A stretch of 64,000 bases of DNA from Thiocapsa bogorovii (GTDB lineage Bacteria; Pseudomonadota; Gammaproteobacteria; Chromatiales; Chromatiaceae), in contig NZ_CP089309.1 in assembly GCF_021228795.1 (NCBI RefSeq), positions 2,790,001 to 2,854,000 on the forward strand, in the 5' to 3' direction. This document shows, one piece after another, positions 6,009 through 58,765 of the stretch. The position numbers were made by a program, and so were the translations under genes. Below the pieces are notes generated by a model. It did no database searches. It worked only from the letters and a program-made list of their open reading frames with translations, and was not told the DNA's origin. The stretch's first letter is position 1; each line of letters opens with the position of its first letter.

Positions 6009-6095
6009 TTAAACCGCGTCTTGTTGTCAAACATGACGTTCTTGCGGAATCGGCCGGAAGCGGACTTCAGCCCCGTCTGCGCCGACGCGGTTTAA
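6009..6095 (-). repeat. 87-bp inverted-end intercistronic element, copy 1 (atpD-atpC)
   Basis: It begins with TTAAACCGCGTC (6009-6020) and ends with its exact reverse complement GACGCGGTTTAA (6084-6095): a perfect 12-bp inverted pair 63 bp apart. In the direction of transcription its end is 11 nt before the atpC start. An A-rich tract (6091-6120) flanks the other side. Four further elements of exactly the same length with related ends occur at 18362, 55924, 58679 and 60514. Confidence 0.7.
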
Positions 6096-6196
6096 AATGA
6101 AAAAATAAAATCCTAAAACTCGGCAGCTCCGACATCTGTGTAGAAGTGCGCCGCCCGACCAAAATCACCTACAGCGCACGCCACACAGGCCGCGTT

Positions 6197-7591
<1,395 letters not shown>

Positions 7592-8681: not shown

Positions 8682-10223
<1,542 letters not shown>

Positions 10224-17411: not shown

Positions 17412-18365
17412 ATGTCGACGCATCTGAAGCGGCGCATCCCGAGCGACTCGGCTATTCTCGGGGAGCGCGTGCTCGAGGCCGCGCGGGCCGTCATTCTCGG
17501 TAAAGACCGCGAGCTGCGGCTTGCCTTGGCCTGCCTGATGGCGCGCGGTCATCTCTTGATCGAGGATGTGCCGGGTGTGGGCAAGACCACCTTGGCGCAT
17601 CTGCTCGCACGCCTGCTCGGTCTGGAGTACGCCCGCATCCAGTTCACGAGCGACCTGCTGCCGGCGGACGTGATCGGGGTGTCGGTCTACGACCGGGCGG
17701 CCGAGTCTTTTCGCTTTCATCCCGGGCCCGTCTTCTCCCAGCTTGTACTCGCCGACGAGATCAATCGCGCCACGCCCAAGGCGCAAAGCGCGCTTCTGGA
17801 GGCGATGGAGGAGCGCCAGGTGACGGTCGAGGGTGAAACCAGACCTTTGCCCGAGCCCTTCTTCGTGATCGCGACCCAAAACCCGCTGTTTCAGGTCGGC
17901 ACCTTTCCGTTGCCCGAGTCCCAGTTGGATCGGTTCCTGATGCGGATCCGGCTCGGCTATCCGGCGGCCGAGCAGGAGAAGGCGCTGCTGGCGGGCGAGG
18001 ACCGCCGCACCATGGTCGCACGCCAACAGCCGGCCCTGACAGGCGAGCAGTTGATCGCGTTGCAGCAGCGGGTGGTCGAGGTCCACGCGGCGCCCGCCAT
18101 CATCGAATACGTCCATGCAATTCTTGCGCTTACGCGCAGCAGCGAACGGTTTCTGCACGGACTCTCGCCGCGCGCCGGGCTCGGCATGCTGCGCGCGGCG
18201 AAGGCGTGGGCGCTCCTTGCGGACCGCGACTACGTGATCCCGGAAGATATCCAGGCGATCCTGCCCTCCTGCGTCGTGCATCGACTCGTCGCGTCCGAGT
18301 ACGGGGGGCGGCTCGACGAGGAGACGGTGGCAAGCGCGATCCTGGATCACGTCGCGCTCGCCTAA
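17412..18365 (+). CDS. MoxR-family AAA+ ATPase
   Basis: 317 residues with Walker A VPGVGKT at 53-59, Walker B LADEIN at 112-117 and the RFLMRI sensor region. MoxR proteins act as chaperone-like ATPases that assemble or activate partner proteins; the partner is often encoded next door with a DUF58 protein and, as here, a transglutaminase-like membrane protein. Plus-strand block between mnmG and mnmE. Its TAA stop lies inside the left end of an 87-bp element. Confidence 0.92.
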   Translation: MSTHLKRRIPSDSAILGERVLEAARAVILGKDRELRLALACLMARGHLLIEDVPGVGKTTLAHLLARLLGLEYARIQFTSDLLPADVIGVSVYDRAAESFRFHPGPVFSQLVLADEINRATPKAQSALLEAMEERQVTVEGETRPLPEPFFVIATQNPLFQVGTFPLPESQLDRFLMRIRLGYPAAEQEKALLAGEDRRTMVARQQPALTGEQLIALQQRVVEVHAAPAIIEYVHAILALTRSSERFLHGLSPRAGLGMLRAAKAWALLADRDYVIPEDIQAILPSCVVHRLVASEYGGRLDEETVASAILDHVALA

Positions 18366-18448
18366 GCGGCGTCCGGCGGGAACCCGAACATCGCGAGCAG
18401 GCGCGACCGCTGGATCGACCCGATTCCGTCGGCGTTGATACCGCTTAA
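18362..18448 (+). repeat. 87-bp inverted-end intercistronic element, copy 2 (moxR-DUF58)
   Basis: Left end CTAAGCGGCGTC (18362-18373), right end GATACCGCTTAA (18437-18448); 9 of 12 positions pair as an inverted repeat. Same 87-bp length as the other copies. The left end contains the moxR stop codon TAA, and the right end lies 27 bp before the ATG of the DUF58 gene. The most diverged pair of ends together with the gspK-gspL copy. Confidence 0.5.
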
Positions 18449-19471: not shown

Positions 19472-21452
19472 GCGGGCCCAGATCCTCGGGATCACGCTTG
19501 TCCTGATCGCGGCCTATCTCCCGCTCGCGTGGCATCTTGCGCTTCAAATCAGCGCCTTTGTCGGGCTGCTCTTCGCGATCCGTCTTGCCTCGCTGCGCTG
19601 GCCCGTGGTCGTGCCGGGAACTTGGCCGTTGGCGGCCTTGACCCTGATCGGCGTCGCCAACGCGGCGGTGACCTATCAGGGCTGGTCGGGGCAGAACGCC
19701 GGAACGGCGCTCTTTGCCTCCATGCTGGCGCTCAAGCTCATGGAGCTGCGCCGCAAATCGGATATCCGTCTGGTCGCGACCCTGATCGGGTTTCTCGTCG
19801 TGGTTGAGTTCCTGTTCGACCAGTCGCCTTGGTTGGTGCTCTATCTGGCTGCCGTAGTGCTGGGGGCCATCGCCCTGCTTGTCGATCTGAACGGCGGACT
19901 CGGGGACGCACGTCGGCGCGGTGCATTTGCGGTCGCCGTCAGGCTCTCGCTCCAGGCGCTTCCGTTGACTCTCATTCTGTTTTTGTTGTTTCCGCGTTTG
20001 AGTGCCCCGCTGTGGAATCTGGGCCTGGATCCGAGCAAGGCCTCGACCGGGATCTCGGACAGCCTCGAGCCGGGCGCGATCAGCGAGTTGGTGCTCAACG
20101 GCGAGCTGGCGTTTCGCGTGCGTTTCGACGGCACGCCGCCCGCTTCCGATCAGCTCTACTGGCGCGGTCCCGTCCTCTGGGAGACGAACGGACGGCGGTG
20201 GTCGGCGGGGGAGGGTGTCGCCAAAGGCGCTCCGGCTAGACTCGTGGAGGCGGGACGCTCGATCGACTACGAGGTGACCTTGGAACCGACCGATCAGCGC
20301 TGGCTCTTCGCCCTGGACATGCCGGACAGCGTCCCGGACGGAGCCTTTATCAGTGCCGACCACCAATTGATCGCACGCCAGGTCGTGAGCACGGTCAAGC
20401 GCTATGAGGTGACCTCCGCGCTCGACTACCGGACCGCATTTTCCGATCCAGCGCGCCGTGCCGCCGGACTGCAGGTCCCGGACAACGTGACGCCGAGGAT
20501 GCGCCGCCTGGTCGAGGATTGGCAGCGCCGCTCGAACGACGATTGGGCGCTGGTCCAGTCCGGGCTGCAATTCTTCAACCGCGAATCCTTCCATTACACC
20601 CTAATGCCGCCGCGCCTCGGCGCGAATCCAACCGACGAGTTCCTGTTCGAGACCCAACGTGGATTCTGCGAGCACTACGCCAGTAGCTTTGCCGTCTTGA
20701 TGCGCATGGCCGGCATCCCCTCGCGAATTGTCCTCGGCTATCTCGGGGGCGAACTCAACCGCGTCGGCGGCTATCACATGGTCTGGCAGTCCGACGCCCA
20801 CGCCTGGGTCGAGGTGTTGATCGACGGGCGCGGCTGGGTACGCGTCGATCCCACCGCCGCCGTCGATCCCTCGCGCGTCGACAACAGCGGGGCCTCGCGG
20901 ATGCTCGGGGCCGGCCCGTCGGTGCGCTTCACCCTGGAGCAAGCCGACGCCATCGCGCGTTTCGTGCGCGATATGCGGCTCTTCGCCGATAGCCTGGACG
21001 CCGCCTGGCAGGATTGGGTGCTGGGCTTCTCGGTCGAGGACCAACTGGCGCTGCTCCAACGGCTGCGGCTAGGAGAGCTGCGCGAATACGGGTTGGTCGG
21101 TCTGATGCTTGCCGCACTCGGGCTGACCCTCGGGATCCTGGTGCTCGCCTCGATCCGCGAACGCAAACCTCTCGAGCCGCTTCAAGCCGAATATGGCCGT
21201 TTTTGCAGACGCCTCGAAAAAATCGGCCTCGGCCGTCTCCCCCACGAGGGGCCGATGGACTATGCCGGGCGGGTCGTCGCACAACGTCCGGATCTCGCCC
21301 CGACGGTCGAGCGCTTCATGGATATCTATATCCCCGCGCAGTACGGGCCGGGAGATCCGCGTGATGCGCTCGCACCACTCGCCGACGTACTGGGCACCTT
21401 TCGGCCTCAGTCGACTCGCCAAACGCCCGGACTGTTCCGGCGATCCCGATAG
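19434..21452 (+). CDS. TgpA-type membrane transglutaminase-like protease (DUF3488/DUF4129)
   Basis: 672 residues. About six membrane helices in the first 190 residues (DUF3488), a periplasmic transglutaminase-core domain with the catalytic triad Cys412 (GFCEHYAS), His456 (SDAHAW) and Asp472 (VDPT), then a further helix near 560 and a DUF4129-like tail. In Pseudomonas the homologous TgpA is a periplasmic enzyme essential for growth; the substrate is unknown. It overlaps the DUF58 gene by 38 bp, so the three plus-strand genes form one unit. Confidence 0.92.
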   Translation: MSKRTIPSNERPERAQILGITLVLIAAYLPLAWHLALQISAFVGLLFAIRLASLRWPVVVPGTWPLAALTLIGVANAAVTYQGWSGQNAGTALFASMLALKLMELRRKSDIRLVATLIGFLVVVEFLFDQSPWLVLYLAAVVLGAIALLVDLNGGLGDARRRGAFAVAVRLSLQALPLTLILFLLFPRLSAPLWNLGLDPSKASTGISDSLEPGAISELVLNGELAFRVRFDGTPPASDQLYWRGPVLWETNGRRWSAGEGVAKGAPARLVEAGRSIDYEVTLEPTDQRWLFALDMPDSVPDGAFISADHQLIARQVVSTVKRYEVTSALDYRTAFSDPARRAAGLQVPDNVTPRMRRLVEDWQRRSNDDWALVQSGLQFFNRESFHYTLMPPRLGANPTDEFLFETQRGFCEHYASSFAVLMRMAGIPSRIVLGYLGGELNRVGGYHMVWQSDAHAWVEVLIDGRGWVRVDPTAAVDPSRVDNSGASRMLGAGPSVRFTLEQADAIARFVRDMRLFADSLDAAWQDWVLGFSVEDQLALLQRLRLGELREYGLVGLMLAALGLTLGILVLASIRERKPLEPLQAEYGRFCRRLEKIGLGRLPHEGPMDYAGRVVAQRPDLAPTVERFMDIYIPAQYGPGDPRDALAPLADVLGTFRPQSTRQTPGLFRRSR

Positions 21453-53977: not shown

Positions 53978-55853
53978 CGACGCCGTCCTCGAAGAGGCAC
54001 CGAGCATCAGGGCGAGGCGCGACGACCTCGACGAGATCACTTCCGGGTCGCAAACGCTCGCCGCCCTCTCGGATTCGCCCGTTTCCTCGGCCACGCATGA
54101 TGCGGTAGACGCCGACCCGGAACGCGCCTCGGAGGGCTCGCCGACCCTGCATCCGGAGCCTCCGCCGGAAGGGCGCGTCGTCGCACACCTACACGGGTCC
54201 GGAAAGCTCTCGCCCGGCGATCTCGCGCGGGCGAGGCGACTCGCCGACGAGGCGGGCGACCCTCTGTTGCCGATGCTTGTTCGCTTGGGGCTCATCTCCG
54301 AGCGCGACATGGCGCAGGCGATGTCCGACGTGCTCGAGCTTCCCCTGACGGACGCGAGCACCTTCCCGTCCGAGCCGTTGCGCGAGGACCTCTTCAGTCT
54401 GCGGTTTCTCAAGGACGCCAAGATCCTCCCCGTGTCCGAGGATCAGGACAGCATCCAAGTGGCGTTCGCCGATCCGATCGATCGCTTCGCGGTCGAGGCC
54501 ATGCAGATGGCGGCGGGCAAACCGGTGAAGGCACTTGTCGGGCTGCCGAGCGAGATCGAGCTGGCCCTAGAACGCCTCTACGAGAAGGTCGAAGAGGCGC
54601 CGGAAAGCGCCGAGGCGGCGCTCGGTGATTTCGACGAGGAGGATATCGAGCACCTCAAGGATCTCGCCAGTGAGGCCCCGGTCATCCGGATGGTCAACCA
54701 GTTGATCCAAAAAGCCCTCGAATCAAGAGCATCGGATATCCACATCGAGCCCTTCGCCGACCAGCTCAAGGTGCGTTACCGCGTCGACGGGATCCTCAAG
54801 GAGGTCGATGCACCGCCCGTGCGCTCCACGGCCGCGGTGATCTCGCGCGTGAAGATCATGGCGAAGCTCAATATCGCGGAGCGCCGCCTGCCTCAGGACG
54901 GCCGTATCCCGATCCGTATCCAGGGCCGGGAGCTGGACCTGCGTGTCTCCACCGTTCCGACCATGTTCGGCGAGAGCGTCGTCATGCGTCTGCTCGACAA
55001 GGAAAGCGTGCGCTTCGACCTGGATGCGCTCGGCTTCGATGGCTCGCCGCGCGAACGCCTCAGGCTCATCCTGGAAAAGCCCTACGGCATCCTGCTCGTG
55101 ACAGGGCCGACGGGCTCGGGCAAAAGTACGACCCTCTACACGGCGCTCAGCCGAATGAACACCGAGGAGCGTAAGATCATCACGGTCGAGGATCCGGTGG
55201 AGTACCAGTTGGCCGGCATCAACCAGATTCAGGTGAAAAGCGCGATCGGCATGACCTTCGCCAGCGCGCTGCGCGCCATCGTTCGGCAAGACCCCGACGT
55301 GATCATGGTCGGCGAGATGCGCGACCTCGAGACCGCCCGGATCGCCGTCCAGTCGGCCCTCACCGGACATGTCGTGCTCTCGACCCTGCACACCAACGAC
55401 GCGGCCAGTGGCGTCACCCGATTGCTGGAGATGGGTGTCGAGGATTATCTGCTCACCTCCACGATCAACGGCATTCTGGCCCAGCGCCTGGTACGCAAGC
55501 TCTGCCCGCACTGTCGGGAATCCTATCCGGCGATCCCGGAGCTGGCGGTGCGTTTCGCCGCCATCGGCGCGGCGCCCGAGGATGTCGAGCTGCAACGCGC
55601 TGTCGGCTGCGACGCCTGCAACGGGACCGGCTATCGCGGCCGTCTGGTCATCACCGAGGTTCTGCTGATGACGGACCACATCCGCAAGGCCGTGCTGAAT
55701 CACGCAACAGCGACCGAGATCCGTCGCATCGCCATCGCCGAGGGTATGGAAACCATGTACCTGGACGGCCTGCGCAAGGCGCTCGATGGGCGCACGACGA
55801 TCGAGGAAGTGCTGCGTGTCGCCGAGGCAGGCGAAGAGCCGAGCGCCGACTGA
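53970..55853 (+). CDS. gspE: Type II secretion ATPase GspE
   Basis: Cytoplasmic hexameric ATPase that drives pseudopilus assembly. 627 residues from the ATG at 53970 (GGAG upstream; 53964 is also possible). A divergent, acidic N-terminal 70 residues, N1 domain, then the ATPase with GPTGSGKSTT near 379, the Asp and His boxes, and a zinc-binding CxxC pair (CPHC near 511 and CDAC further on). First gene of the gsp operon. Confidence 0.97.
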   Translation: MHDDAVLEEAPSIRARRDDLDEITSGSQTLAALSDSPVSSATHDAVDADPERASEGSPTLHPEPPPEGRVVAHLHGSGKLSPGDLARARRLADEAGDPLLPMLVRLGLISERDMAQAMSDVLELPLTDASTFPSEPLREDLFSLRFLKDAKILPVSEDQDSIQVAFADPIDRFAVEAMQMAAGKPVKALVGLPSEIELALERLYEKVEEAPESAEAALGDFDEEDIEHLKDLASEAPVIRMVNQLIQKALESRASDIHIEPFADQLKVRYRVDGILKEVDAPPVRSTAAVISRVKIMAKLNIAERRLPQDGRIPIRIQGRELDLRVSTVPTMFGESVVMRLLDKESVRFDLDALGFDGSPRERLRLILEKPYGILLVTGPTGSGKSTTLYTALSRMNTEERKIITVEDPVEYQLAGINQIQVKSAIGMTFASALRAIVRQDPDVIMVGEMRDLETARIAVQSALTGHVVLSTLHTNDAASGVTRLLEMGVEDYLLTSTINGILAQRLVRKLCPHCRESYPAIPELAVRFAAIGAAPEDVELQRAVGCDACNGTGYRGRLVITEVLLMTDHIRKAVLNHATATEIRRIAIAEGMETMYLDGLRKALDGRTTIEEVLRVAEAGEEPSAD

Positions 55854-55923
55854 GTCGCGCATCCCCAGGGGCCATTGATGCCATGTCTCGGCGCACCGCT
55901 CGACAAGAACCGCTTTTCATGTT

Positions 55924-56010
55924 TTGAACGGCGTCTCCCGCCGCGTCGATTGAGTCACTGGACGTCGATCAAACGCGAATCCGATGCATATCGCATGCGA
56001 CGCGGTTCAA
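55924..56010 (+). repeat. 87-bp inverted-end intercistronic element, copy 3 (gspE-gspF)
   Basis: TTGAACGGCGTC (55924-55935) and GACGCGGTTCAA (55999-56010); 11 of 12 positions pair. The right end lies 12 bp before the GTG start of gspF, with GAGGA in between. Aligned with the reverse complement of the gspI-gspJ copy without gaps, TTGASTCA at element positions 27-34 and GYCGATC at 41-47 are shared. Confidence 0.65.
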
Positions 56011-58278: not shown

Positions 58279-58682
58279 GGATCCTGCGGCAGAAAAGACG
58301 ACCTCAGTCCGGCTTTTCGCTTCTCGAGGTCTTGGTCGCCTTCGCCATCCTCTCCGTGTCGCTCGGTGTCCTGATGCAGATCTTTTCGCAAGCCTCGCGG
58401 GCCACCCTGGTGTCCTCCCAATACAGCCGTGCCGCTTCGTTGGCCGAGTCCAAGCTCAATGCCGTGGGTACGGCGATCCCCTTGGAGGAAGGCTCCGTTT
58501 CGGGCGGCCCCGAGGGTGGCATTGCTTGGGAGGTGACCATCCTACCGGTCACCCTCGGCGAGGAGTTCGGTGCCGAGCCGCCAGCCACGCCCTACCGTGT
58601 CAACGCGACCGCGCTCTGGCAGGACGGGACCCAGGTCCGCAGCTTGACGCTTTCGACCTTGCGGCTCGGCGAACGGTTCTGA
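58263..58682 (+). CDS. gspI: Type II secretion minor pseudopilin GspI
   Basis: About 139 residues with the prepilin motif SG-FSLLEVLVAFAIL and a short C-terminal domain. No ATG; candidate starts are GTG 58263 or TTG 58275, and the TTG has GGAG 6 nt upstream and overlaps the gspH stop. The stop codon TGA lies inside the left end of an 87-bp element. Confidence 0.9.
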   Translation: MERALRILRQKRRPQSGFSLLEVLVAFAILSVSLGVLMQIFSQASRATLVSSQYSRAASLAESKLNAVGTAIPLEEGSVSGGPEGGIAWEVTILPVTLGEEFGAEPPATPYRVNATALWQDGTQVRSLTLSTLRLGERF

Positions 58683-58765
58683 GCCGCGTCCGCCATGCCA
58701 TGGAGCGTTTTCAACCGGGATCGGCTTCGAATGAGTCAACGATCCTCGCAGCAGACGCGGTTCAG
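58679..58765 (+). repeat. 87-bp inverted-end intercistronic element, copy 4 (gspI-gspJ)
   Basis: CTGAGCCGCGTC (58679-58690) and GACGCGGTTCAG (58754-58765); 11 of 12 positions pair. The left end contains the gspI stop codon. The right end runs into AGGAG, the ribosome site of gspJ, 13 bp before the ATG at 58779. Confidence 0.65.

Follow-up and report, generated by a model that had tools for sequence, protein, structure and literature searches.

What are the segments of about 87 bp with inverted ends that lie between genes of core operons in Thiocapsa: folded RNA, mobile DNA or both? The question arises from a stretch of 64,000 nucleotides (here, the window), a 64-kb piece of the source genome (G000), which is a single contig of 5.65 Mb. 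The original prediction placed a family of such segments at five sites (6009, 18362, 55924, 58679 and 60514) and proposed that they are a folded RNA or a non-autonomous mobile element. We consider it likely that they belong to a family of non-autonomous mobile DNA hairpins in the Chromatiaceae (Thiocapsa and relatives), moved by an enzyme acting in trans into Y-TA-R-like targets.

Units in the window

A unit of about 87 bp consists of two pairing 12-bp arms, YTRAACCGCGYC...GRCGCGGTTYAR, around an oriented interior of about 63 bp that is recognizable by its head, CCRGNGCGRNATGCG, but very divergent. Units stand alone or as inverted pairs of about 194 bp, the two members being about 21 bp apart. 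The window was scored with a covariance model, R1, trained on 107 G000 copies and run with filters off. The training set included 58679, 55924 and 6009; units 18362 and 6113 lay outside it. The features, with R1 scores, are as follows.

6009..6095, no strand assigned: atp unit 1, one half of the inverted pair in the atpD-atpC gap; ends 12/12 paired, TTAA...TTAA; 41.0 bits, E 6e-10
6096..6112, no strand assigned: A+T-rich spacer joining both units of the atp inverted pair
6113..6200, minus strand: atp unit 2, the pair partner; non-consensus ends CTAAAACTCGGC / GCCGCGTTTTAG, 11/12 paired; 39.9 bits, E 1.3e-9
6197..6199, minus strand: atpD stop codon TAA, within the outer end of unit 2
18362..18448, plus strand: diverged single unit flanked by a MoxR-type AAA gene and a DUF58-matching gene; 20.3 bits, E 1e-3
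18363..18365, plus strand: stop codon TAA of the MoxR-type gene, at unit nt 2-4
55850..55923, no strand assigned: probable eroded partner of the 55924 unit, whose outer end CTGAGTCGCGC bears the gspE stop
55851-55853: gspE stop codon TGA, inside the outer end of the eroded partner
55924..56010, minus strand: unit in the gspE-gspF gap; 57.6 bits, E 7e-15
58679..58765, plus strand: single unit separating two prepilin-type type II secretion (T2SS) genes; 70.6 bits, E 8e-19
58680..58682, plus strand: stop codon TGA of the upstream T2SS gene, at unit nt 2-4

In the atpD-atpC operon, which runs on the minus strand, positions 6009-6200 form one inverted pair. The original prediction listed its first member and missed the partner at 6113-6200; it contained neither the inverted-pair composite nor the coincidence of units with stop codons. 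Specifically, at all four loci (atpD, MoxR, gspE and T2SS), the stop codon of the upstream gene occupies nt 2-4 of an outer end. In the case of gspE, the coincidence falls in the eroded partner at 55850-55923, a segment too short for R1 and hence listed without a score, and not in the 55924 unit. The arms at 18362 depart from the consensus yet match each other (CTAAGCGG-, TTAAGCGG-), with the same two departures at both ends. With these shared departures and an empty counterpart in G004, 18362 is a diverged member of the family.

The coordinates and the end pairing given earlier for the first four sites (12, 9, 11 and 11 of 12) are accurate, and these four sites are genuine members, 18362 in its diverged form. 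The fifth site, 60514, was described as more diverged, and indeed only 7/12 of its end positions pair; we do not retain it as a member. It is absent among the 22 R1 matches in the window (E up to 10), and the stretch is equally long in all seven genomes compared, G000 included. All five sites lie, as described, between two genes on the same strand according to our own gene calls, which were made with a codon-usage script that leaves starts uncertain and stops firm. The further claim that the segments end 11-27 nt before the next start agrees with the called starts at 6009, 18362, 55924 and 60514; the start after 58679 is uncertain. A weak match inside coding sequence, at 20754-20838 (11.3 bits, 9/12 ends), was taken as chance. 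The window holds no Rfam match at gathering score.

Copy number, anatomy and distribution

The family is abundant in the source genome. The pattern GACGCGGTTYAR occurs 194+198 times in G000 versus 5+0 times for the reversed pattern, and the paired ends AACCGCGYC-N40-70-GRCGCGGTT yield 247 tight copies versus 0 for reversed ends. A genome-wide R1 search, in which 150 candidates were scored, gave at least 150 matches. From a systematic sample of 60 stretches of 20 kb, we estimate about 580 units in G000, based on 122 units counted in the 1.186 Mb sampled beyond the window, with up to three mismatches allowed in the ends. In the sample and the window together (1.25 Mb), 186 pairs of ends lie 30-200 bp apart, and reversed ends give 2 such pairs. 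Separations peak at 84-90 bp (123/186) and, owing to the inverted pairs, at 190-200 bp (41/186). Because 123 of the 186 pairs fall at 84-90 bp and reversed ends give only 2, the family is not a product of chance. The claimed length of exactly 87 bp is the mode (57/139 copies); copies range from 84 to 90 bp in a search that allowed 83-91.

Conservation is concentrated at the ends. Alignment of 107 G000 units gives a consensus interior with head CCGGNGCGANATGCG and strong conservation in the 12-bp arms only; RNAalifold finds no conserved interior structure in the same units. In these 107 copies, standard pairs make up 95.0% of the arm helix versus 89.8 in shuffled alignments, double-changed cells number 106 versus 43.1, and the covariation score is 0.229 versus 0.130 when shuffled and at most 0.072 when slid. 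Positions 1, 3 and 11 hold most of the covariation. Pairing begins sharply at position 1 with none outside, and the flanks display no base preference. The commonest ends of singles are TTAA...TTAA (31/128), CTAA...TTAG (27/128) and CTGA...TCAG (19/128), and TG...CA ends occur in 19/107 copies. Among 59 clean singles, 42 carry YTAA...TTAR ends, and position 1 is complementary in 33 of these 42 (p 5e-4).

Inverted pairs account for 85 of 215 clusters in 2.4 Mb from seven genomes. The heads point outward in 72 of the 85, the A+T-rich spacers measure 18-22 bp in 73, and the ends of the pair extend over about 24 bp: TAAACCGCGYCCAGNGCGRNATGC. The outer bases of pairs are mutually independent (16, 18, 9, 10; p 1.0; 53/85 pairs with such ends). 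In G028, a genome from outside the genus, a similar unit passed the filter in 18/20 stretches, and the spacer plus the start of a second unit was seen by eye in 14 of these 18; its copies resemble one another and look recent. Two minor forms were also encountered. One is a 25-bp miniature, TTAAACCGCGCCCGGTGCGGTTTAA, in a sampled stretch of G010 (416884-416908, joined coordinate), like a unit that has lost its whole interior. The other consists of nested ends, in which units appear to be inserted in another unit's arm (G001 101666 and G010 367193, joined coordinates).

In relatives, copies are distributed patchily. Including the source genome, eight of the 11 genomes of the genus are rich in units: the paired-end pattern gives 161-645 copies in seven of the ten other congeners, one copy in G005 and 0 in G006 and G009. 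The same pattern gives 61 matches in one other genus. Across the GTDB family, at least one match occurs in 38/210 genomes and 13/61 genera, with reversed controls at 0-2 per genome; many genomes have only 1-3 matches, which may be chance. Outside the genus, G143 (254) and G028 (60) are strongly represented, as are two genera, one with 43-97 matches in three of its seven genomes and the other with 30-50 in three of its eight. Among the matches listed are Thiocapsa, Thiobaca, Thiocystis, Lamprocystis, Thiorhodococcus and Chromatiaceae MAGs. R1 also detects eroded relics, giving 8 matches in G005 and 20 in G009 among 150 candidates scored per genome, counts in which one place may appear on both strands; none of the 150 candidates scored in G006 matched. 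Because relics persist where intact copies are few or missing, the family must be old in the genus, with decay in some lines. Seven matches on viral contigs reach at most 19.7 bits (best E 0.0017). The open-access searches made turned up no account of these ends: text matches to six 12-mer ends are unrelated by title, and papers on Chromatiaceae or Thiocapsa repeats among the matches listed lack the family in their titles and opening abstract text. In Chromatiaceae genome papers searched for repeats, the portions available mention CRISPR alone or contain no repeat term.

Empty sites and stop codons

The mobile half of the original proposal is supported by the dispersed copies, by their patchiness, and by the presence or absence of whole units in syntenic gaps. 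We queried 211 clusters with flanks, out of 215, and defined a short counterpart as one with less than 60 bp between aligned flanks. Short orthologous counterparts exist at 16 sites. At 10 of these (11/17 rows), exactly 4 bp replaces the whole single or pair; the remainder is 3 or 5 bp at three others and -2, 22 or 33 at the last three. Because 4 bp replaces either form entirely, singles and pairs both come and go as units. These comparisons span species, with flanks mostly 3-16% different and more at a few, and the counts for G000, G001 and G010, which have orthologs in common, are not independent. At two G010 sites, 204914 and 241054, the unit is missing in three other congeners each and the remainder is 4 bp, once 5; these look like gains. 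At 18362, the unit is present in G001 and G010 and missing in G004, where a single TTAA joins the flanks. Since congeners beyond G004 carry the unit, the empty state is most simply a loss; for that reason, some of the 4-bp remainders may have arisen by deletion between short repeats and may not be empty targets.

The remaining window loci vary similarly. The atp pair is present in G001-G004, G007, G008 and G010. G009 and G006 retain it in eroded form, and G005 lacks it, with 90 bp versus 256 separating the same flanks. The 58679 unit occupies the same gap in G001-G004, G007 and G010, is truncated in G008 and is missing from G005, G006 and G009. Between gspE and gspF, an inverted pair stands in G002, G004 and G010. 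At the same place G003 has a pair whose second unit is diverged, G000 a unit with an eroded partner, and G001 and G007 a single. Pairs and singles thus replace each other at this site. Two contigs of G028 share an oppositely oriented flank, and one is without the pair's second unit, with TTAG left, like a precise loss. The eroded atp pair of G009 (contig 104, about 9000-9186) sits in a genome without tight copies, as if the family had died there.

The letters at the termini bear on how units enter. No clean target duplication is seen. A 2-bp duplication fits termini of the form TA...TA but not TG...CA. A direct duplication of 4 bp was considered and rejected: in most copies the 4-mer on the left is the reverse complement of the one on the right, with CTAA...TTAG and CTGA...TCAG common. 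By our reading, TA occupies the middle at only three of the ten clean 4-bp sites.

The coincidence with stop codons extends well beyond the window. In G000, the neighbor's stop lies exactly at nt 2-4 in 46 of 96 stop-facing outer ends, 1-20 nt away in 17 and farther in 33. Of the coinciding ends, 43 read Y-TRA, and the three others read TTAG, GTAA and ATAA. At least one end coincides with a stop in 42/90 clusters, and both ends do in four inverted pairs. The finding repeats in G010 (31/71) and G001 (21/46), which are partly orthologous. We envision an enzyme that acts in trans, recognizes the arms and places units into Y-TA-R-like sites. Such sites would be rare inside the genes of G+C-rich genomes, and stops would make up a fair share of the harmless ones. 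The first base of the unit after TA is A, and hence insertion into a TAA or TAG stop would rebuild TAA. Insertions at stop codons would thus be kept because harmless sites are rare and the stop is restored. The numbers indicate that this is not the entire story. YTAR sites in the sample number 1000 between genes, 728 in genes and 158 on stops; stops therefore represent 158/1158 of non-coding sites (~14% expected), versus 47% of clusters (binomial p 4e-14). Given this 3.4-fold excess over the YTAR expectation, an account from target preference plus selection is incomplete.

Two other accounts address the coincidence. One holds that the hairpin is directed to stops: entry at Y-TRA would rebuild the stop, the essential-operon junctions of ATP synthase and type II secretion would be colonized harmlessly, and one candidate enzyme, recognizing the paired 12-bp ends, would move both the 87-bp unit and the 194-bp pair. 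We regard this stronger version as possible, though on the unlikely side. The other invokes selection alone, such that units insert randomly near gene ends and the survivors are those whose own TRA ends the gene cleanly. The outer end does always offer TRA in one frame, and only one of 125 copies lies inside a called gene (seven more are at stretch edges). Against it, the empty genome stops at the same codon at four of five polymorphic stop-coinciding sites (the fifth does not), the empty 18362 site of G004 keeps the same stop codon, and G005, G006 and G009, which lack the 58679 unit, stop at the same codon in the alignment. At those sites, because the empty orthologs share the stop, the insertion point is the natural stop, and the gene was left untruncated. 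Selection alone is therefore already disfavored, and we think it quite improbable. At one empty site the stop is TGA, and the filled copy there has TAA. In G063, from another genus, the reading frame immediately upstream of a unit seems to be closed by the unit's TAA (stretch L260, ~197-283).

Arm pairing, mobilization and known repeats

We return to insertion in trans at Y-TA-R-like sites. The copy number, the pairing and covariation of the arms, the presence or absence of whole units, their sharp ends and the coincidence of outer ends with stops are best read as those of a new MITE/REPIN-like family with a Y-TA-R-type target. If so, one unrecognized mobile family explains several hundred sites per genome in classical phototrophs, and the coincidence with stops would reveal how a dense, G+C-rich genome absorbs insertions in core operons with little damage. 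The combination of near-fixed length, free interior and co-varying arms furthermore provides a test case for distinguishing structural selection from homogenization by template switching.

What, then, keeps the arms paired? In 55 one-direction ortholog comparisons, in which the requirement for intact query arms biases the arm rates, difference rates for arms, interiors and flanks are 0.112, 0.177 and 0.128 in singles and 0.045, 0.191 and 0.108 in units in pairs. A less biased set of five unit-loci (atp unit 2 and 18362 lie outside the strict end search; two loci have 3-4 genomes) has 22/120 varying columns in arms versus 134/316 in interiors (p 2e-6). Together with the location of units in core operons (atp, T2SS) and the largely maintained pairing of the non-consensus 6113 and 18362 stems in relatives, this lower variability would suit RNA elements past stop codons that keep their stems for mRNA protection or RNase processing in operons. 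Other observations run counter to such a role. On the sense strand of codirectional gaps, G-U mismatches number 70 and A-C mismatches 60 (p 0.43, orthologs included), a near-equality that does not favor an RNA function. The 58679 stem is as variable as its interior (11/24 versus 24/63), revealing no arm constraint. In the 55 ortholog comparisons, changes in single-unit stems are mostly one-sided (84 pair changes, 83 of them breaking or restoring pairing) versus 12 double changes, 8 compensated, and the interior has no structure. An RNA function is thus unlikely in our estimation: of the folded-RNA half of the original proposal, the paired, covarying stem stands, but the mismatch counts do not favor it and the interior has no conserved structure.

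Arm covariation could instead be mutational, with template switching copying one arm of an imperfect inverted repeat onto the other and no selection for pairing at all. The available text of PMC8794818 describes such a mechanism for RNA genes. Such copying would account for the slower change of the arms as well as for their joint changes. Arms vary at under half the interior rate, G-U is not preferred, and atp unit 1 orthologs carry TTAA/TTAA, TTGA/TCAA and TTAA/TCAA, that is, A-T/G-C swaps with an A-C intermediate. Position 1 is mostly paired in the clean singles, and the two outer ends of a pair vary independently, as copying within a unit would have it. Conversely, a 63-nt loop seems long to us, atp unit 2, with 1/24 stem columns varying in eight genomes, is more conserved than half-rate copying predicts, and the mechanism accounts for pairing only and not for spread. 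We deem this purely mutational origin a serious contender, if somewhat short of even chances; the alternative is selection for pairing, for example by the mobilizing enzyme. Under the mobile-hairpin reading that we prefer, the interior would drift after insertion. The arms would change slowly and at times jointly, probably because DNA-level template switching copies one onto the other, or because of weak selection on the hairpin.

The enzyme was sought at transposase loci of seven genomes, with about 1.5 kb inspected on each side. No transposase bracketed by unit ends was found at 30 of 36 IS630-type (PF13358) loci. Y1 (PF01797) matches exist in all seven genomes, with a large set of 14 in G000, and 0 of the 39 loci inspected of 62 are bracketed by units. 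In G000, a clear unit lies within about 1.5 kb at 1/14, not bracketing the gene; the 25 loci inspected in the six other genomes (48 matches there) are all unbracketed. The 2.4 Mb of sampled sequence contains no autonomous element with the same ends. A 3357-bp pair of lone ends in G001 was rejected as a long element on the grounds that it spans host genes, and five G063 stretches with head pairs resembling long bracketed elements proved to be separate units. The cognate transposase was thus not found in the searched loci and sample, a result that does not establish its full absence.

Among known repeats, REPINs come close. Like them, the units have inverted, conserved ends at a near-constant distance and a compensatory hairpin; like MITEs, they are short elements with terminal inverted repeats in many dispersed copies. 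With REPIN/REP-BIME elements and their RAYT transposase, as presented in the accessible text of PMC3116915, they share high copy number, inverted ends at near-fixed distance, a variable and less conserved spacer, a hairpin with compensatory changes, higher-order clusters and extragenic position. One might therefore suppose that the units are REPINs, inverted REP doublets mobilized by a RAYT (Y1) transposase as single-stranded hairpins, and the Y1 matches in every genome searched would be in keeping with this. In P. fluorescens, according to the same partial text, the 16-mers of GI REPINs start 71 bp apart (PMC3116915). Compared with REPINs as portrayed there (PMC3116915), the units differ in having no GTAG tag or REP hairpin per end, no RAYT found at their ends, heads-outward pairs as a second mobile unit, and an outer end on stops. 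The 107-copy consensus contains neither the tag nor a conserved small hairpin in each end, CGTC sits in the paired stem (paired in most copies) and not in an unpaired tag, and the Y1 loci are unbracketed as described above. Membership among the REPINs consequently strikes us as improbable.

CGTC-tagged REPs, in the sections of PMC3733652 at hand, are 20-40 bp long; their stems measure 8-9 bp and their CGTC tag is unpaired. The units have in common with them palindromic inverted dimers without a known transposase and the letters CGTC, and differ in that CGTC lies inside a 12-bp stem closing a loop of about 63 nt (PMC3733652). TA-target MITEs such as RUP of pneumococcus and Correia/NEMIS, as far as the portion of PMC2229807 extends, resemble the units in being <200 bp and intergenic, with terminal inverted repeats, and in having TA at both termini in most copies. 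Unlike RUP and Correia elements (PMC2229807, same portion), the units are not A+T-rich, their interiors are far more diverged than their ends, TG...CA variants occur, and a matching IS was not found in the loci searched. On this comparison, the architecture would appear nearest to REPINs and TA-target MITEs (RUP, Correia), with the defining REP features missing. MIRUs of Mycobacterium tuberculosis are small repeats at overlapping stop/start codons (DTGA sites), characterized by short ORFs and tandem arrays, and are not known as paired-end hairpins. With the Thiocapsa units, they share the habit of lodging at stop codons.
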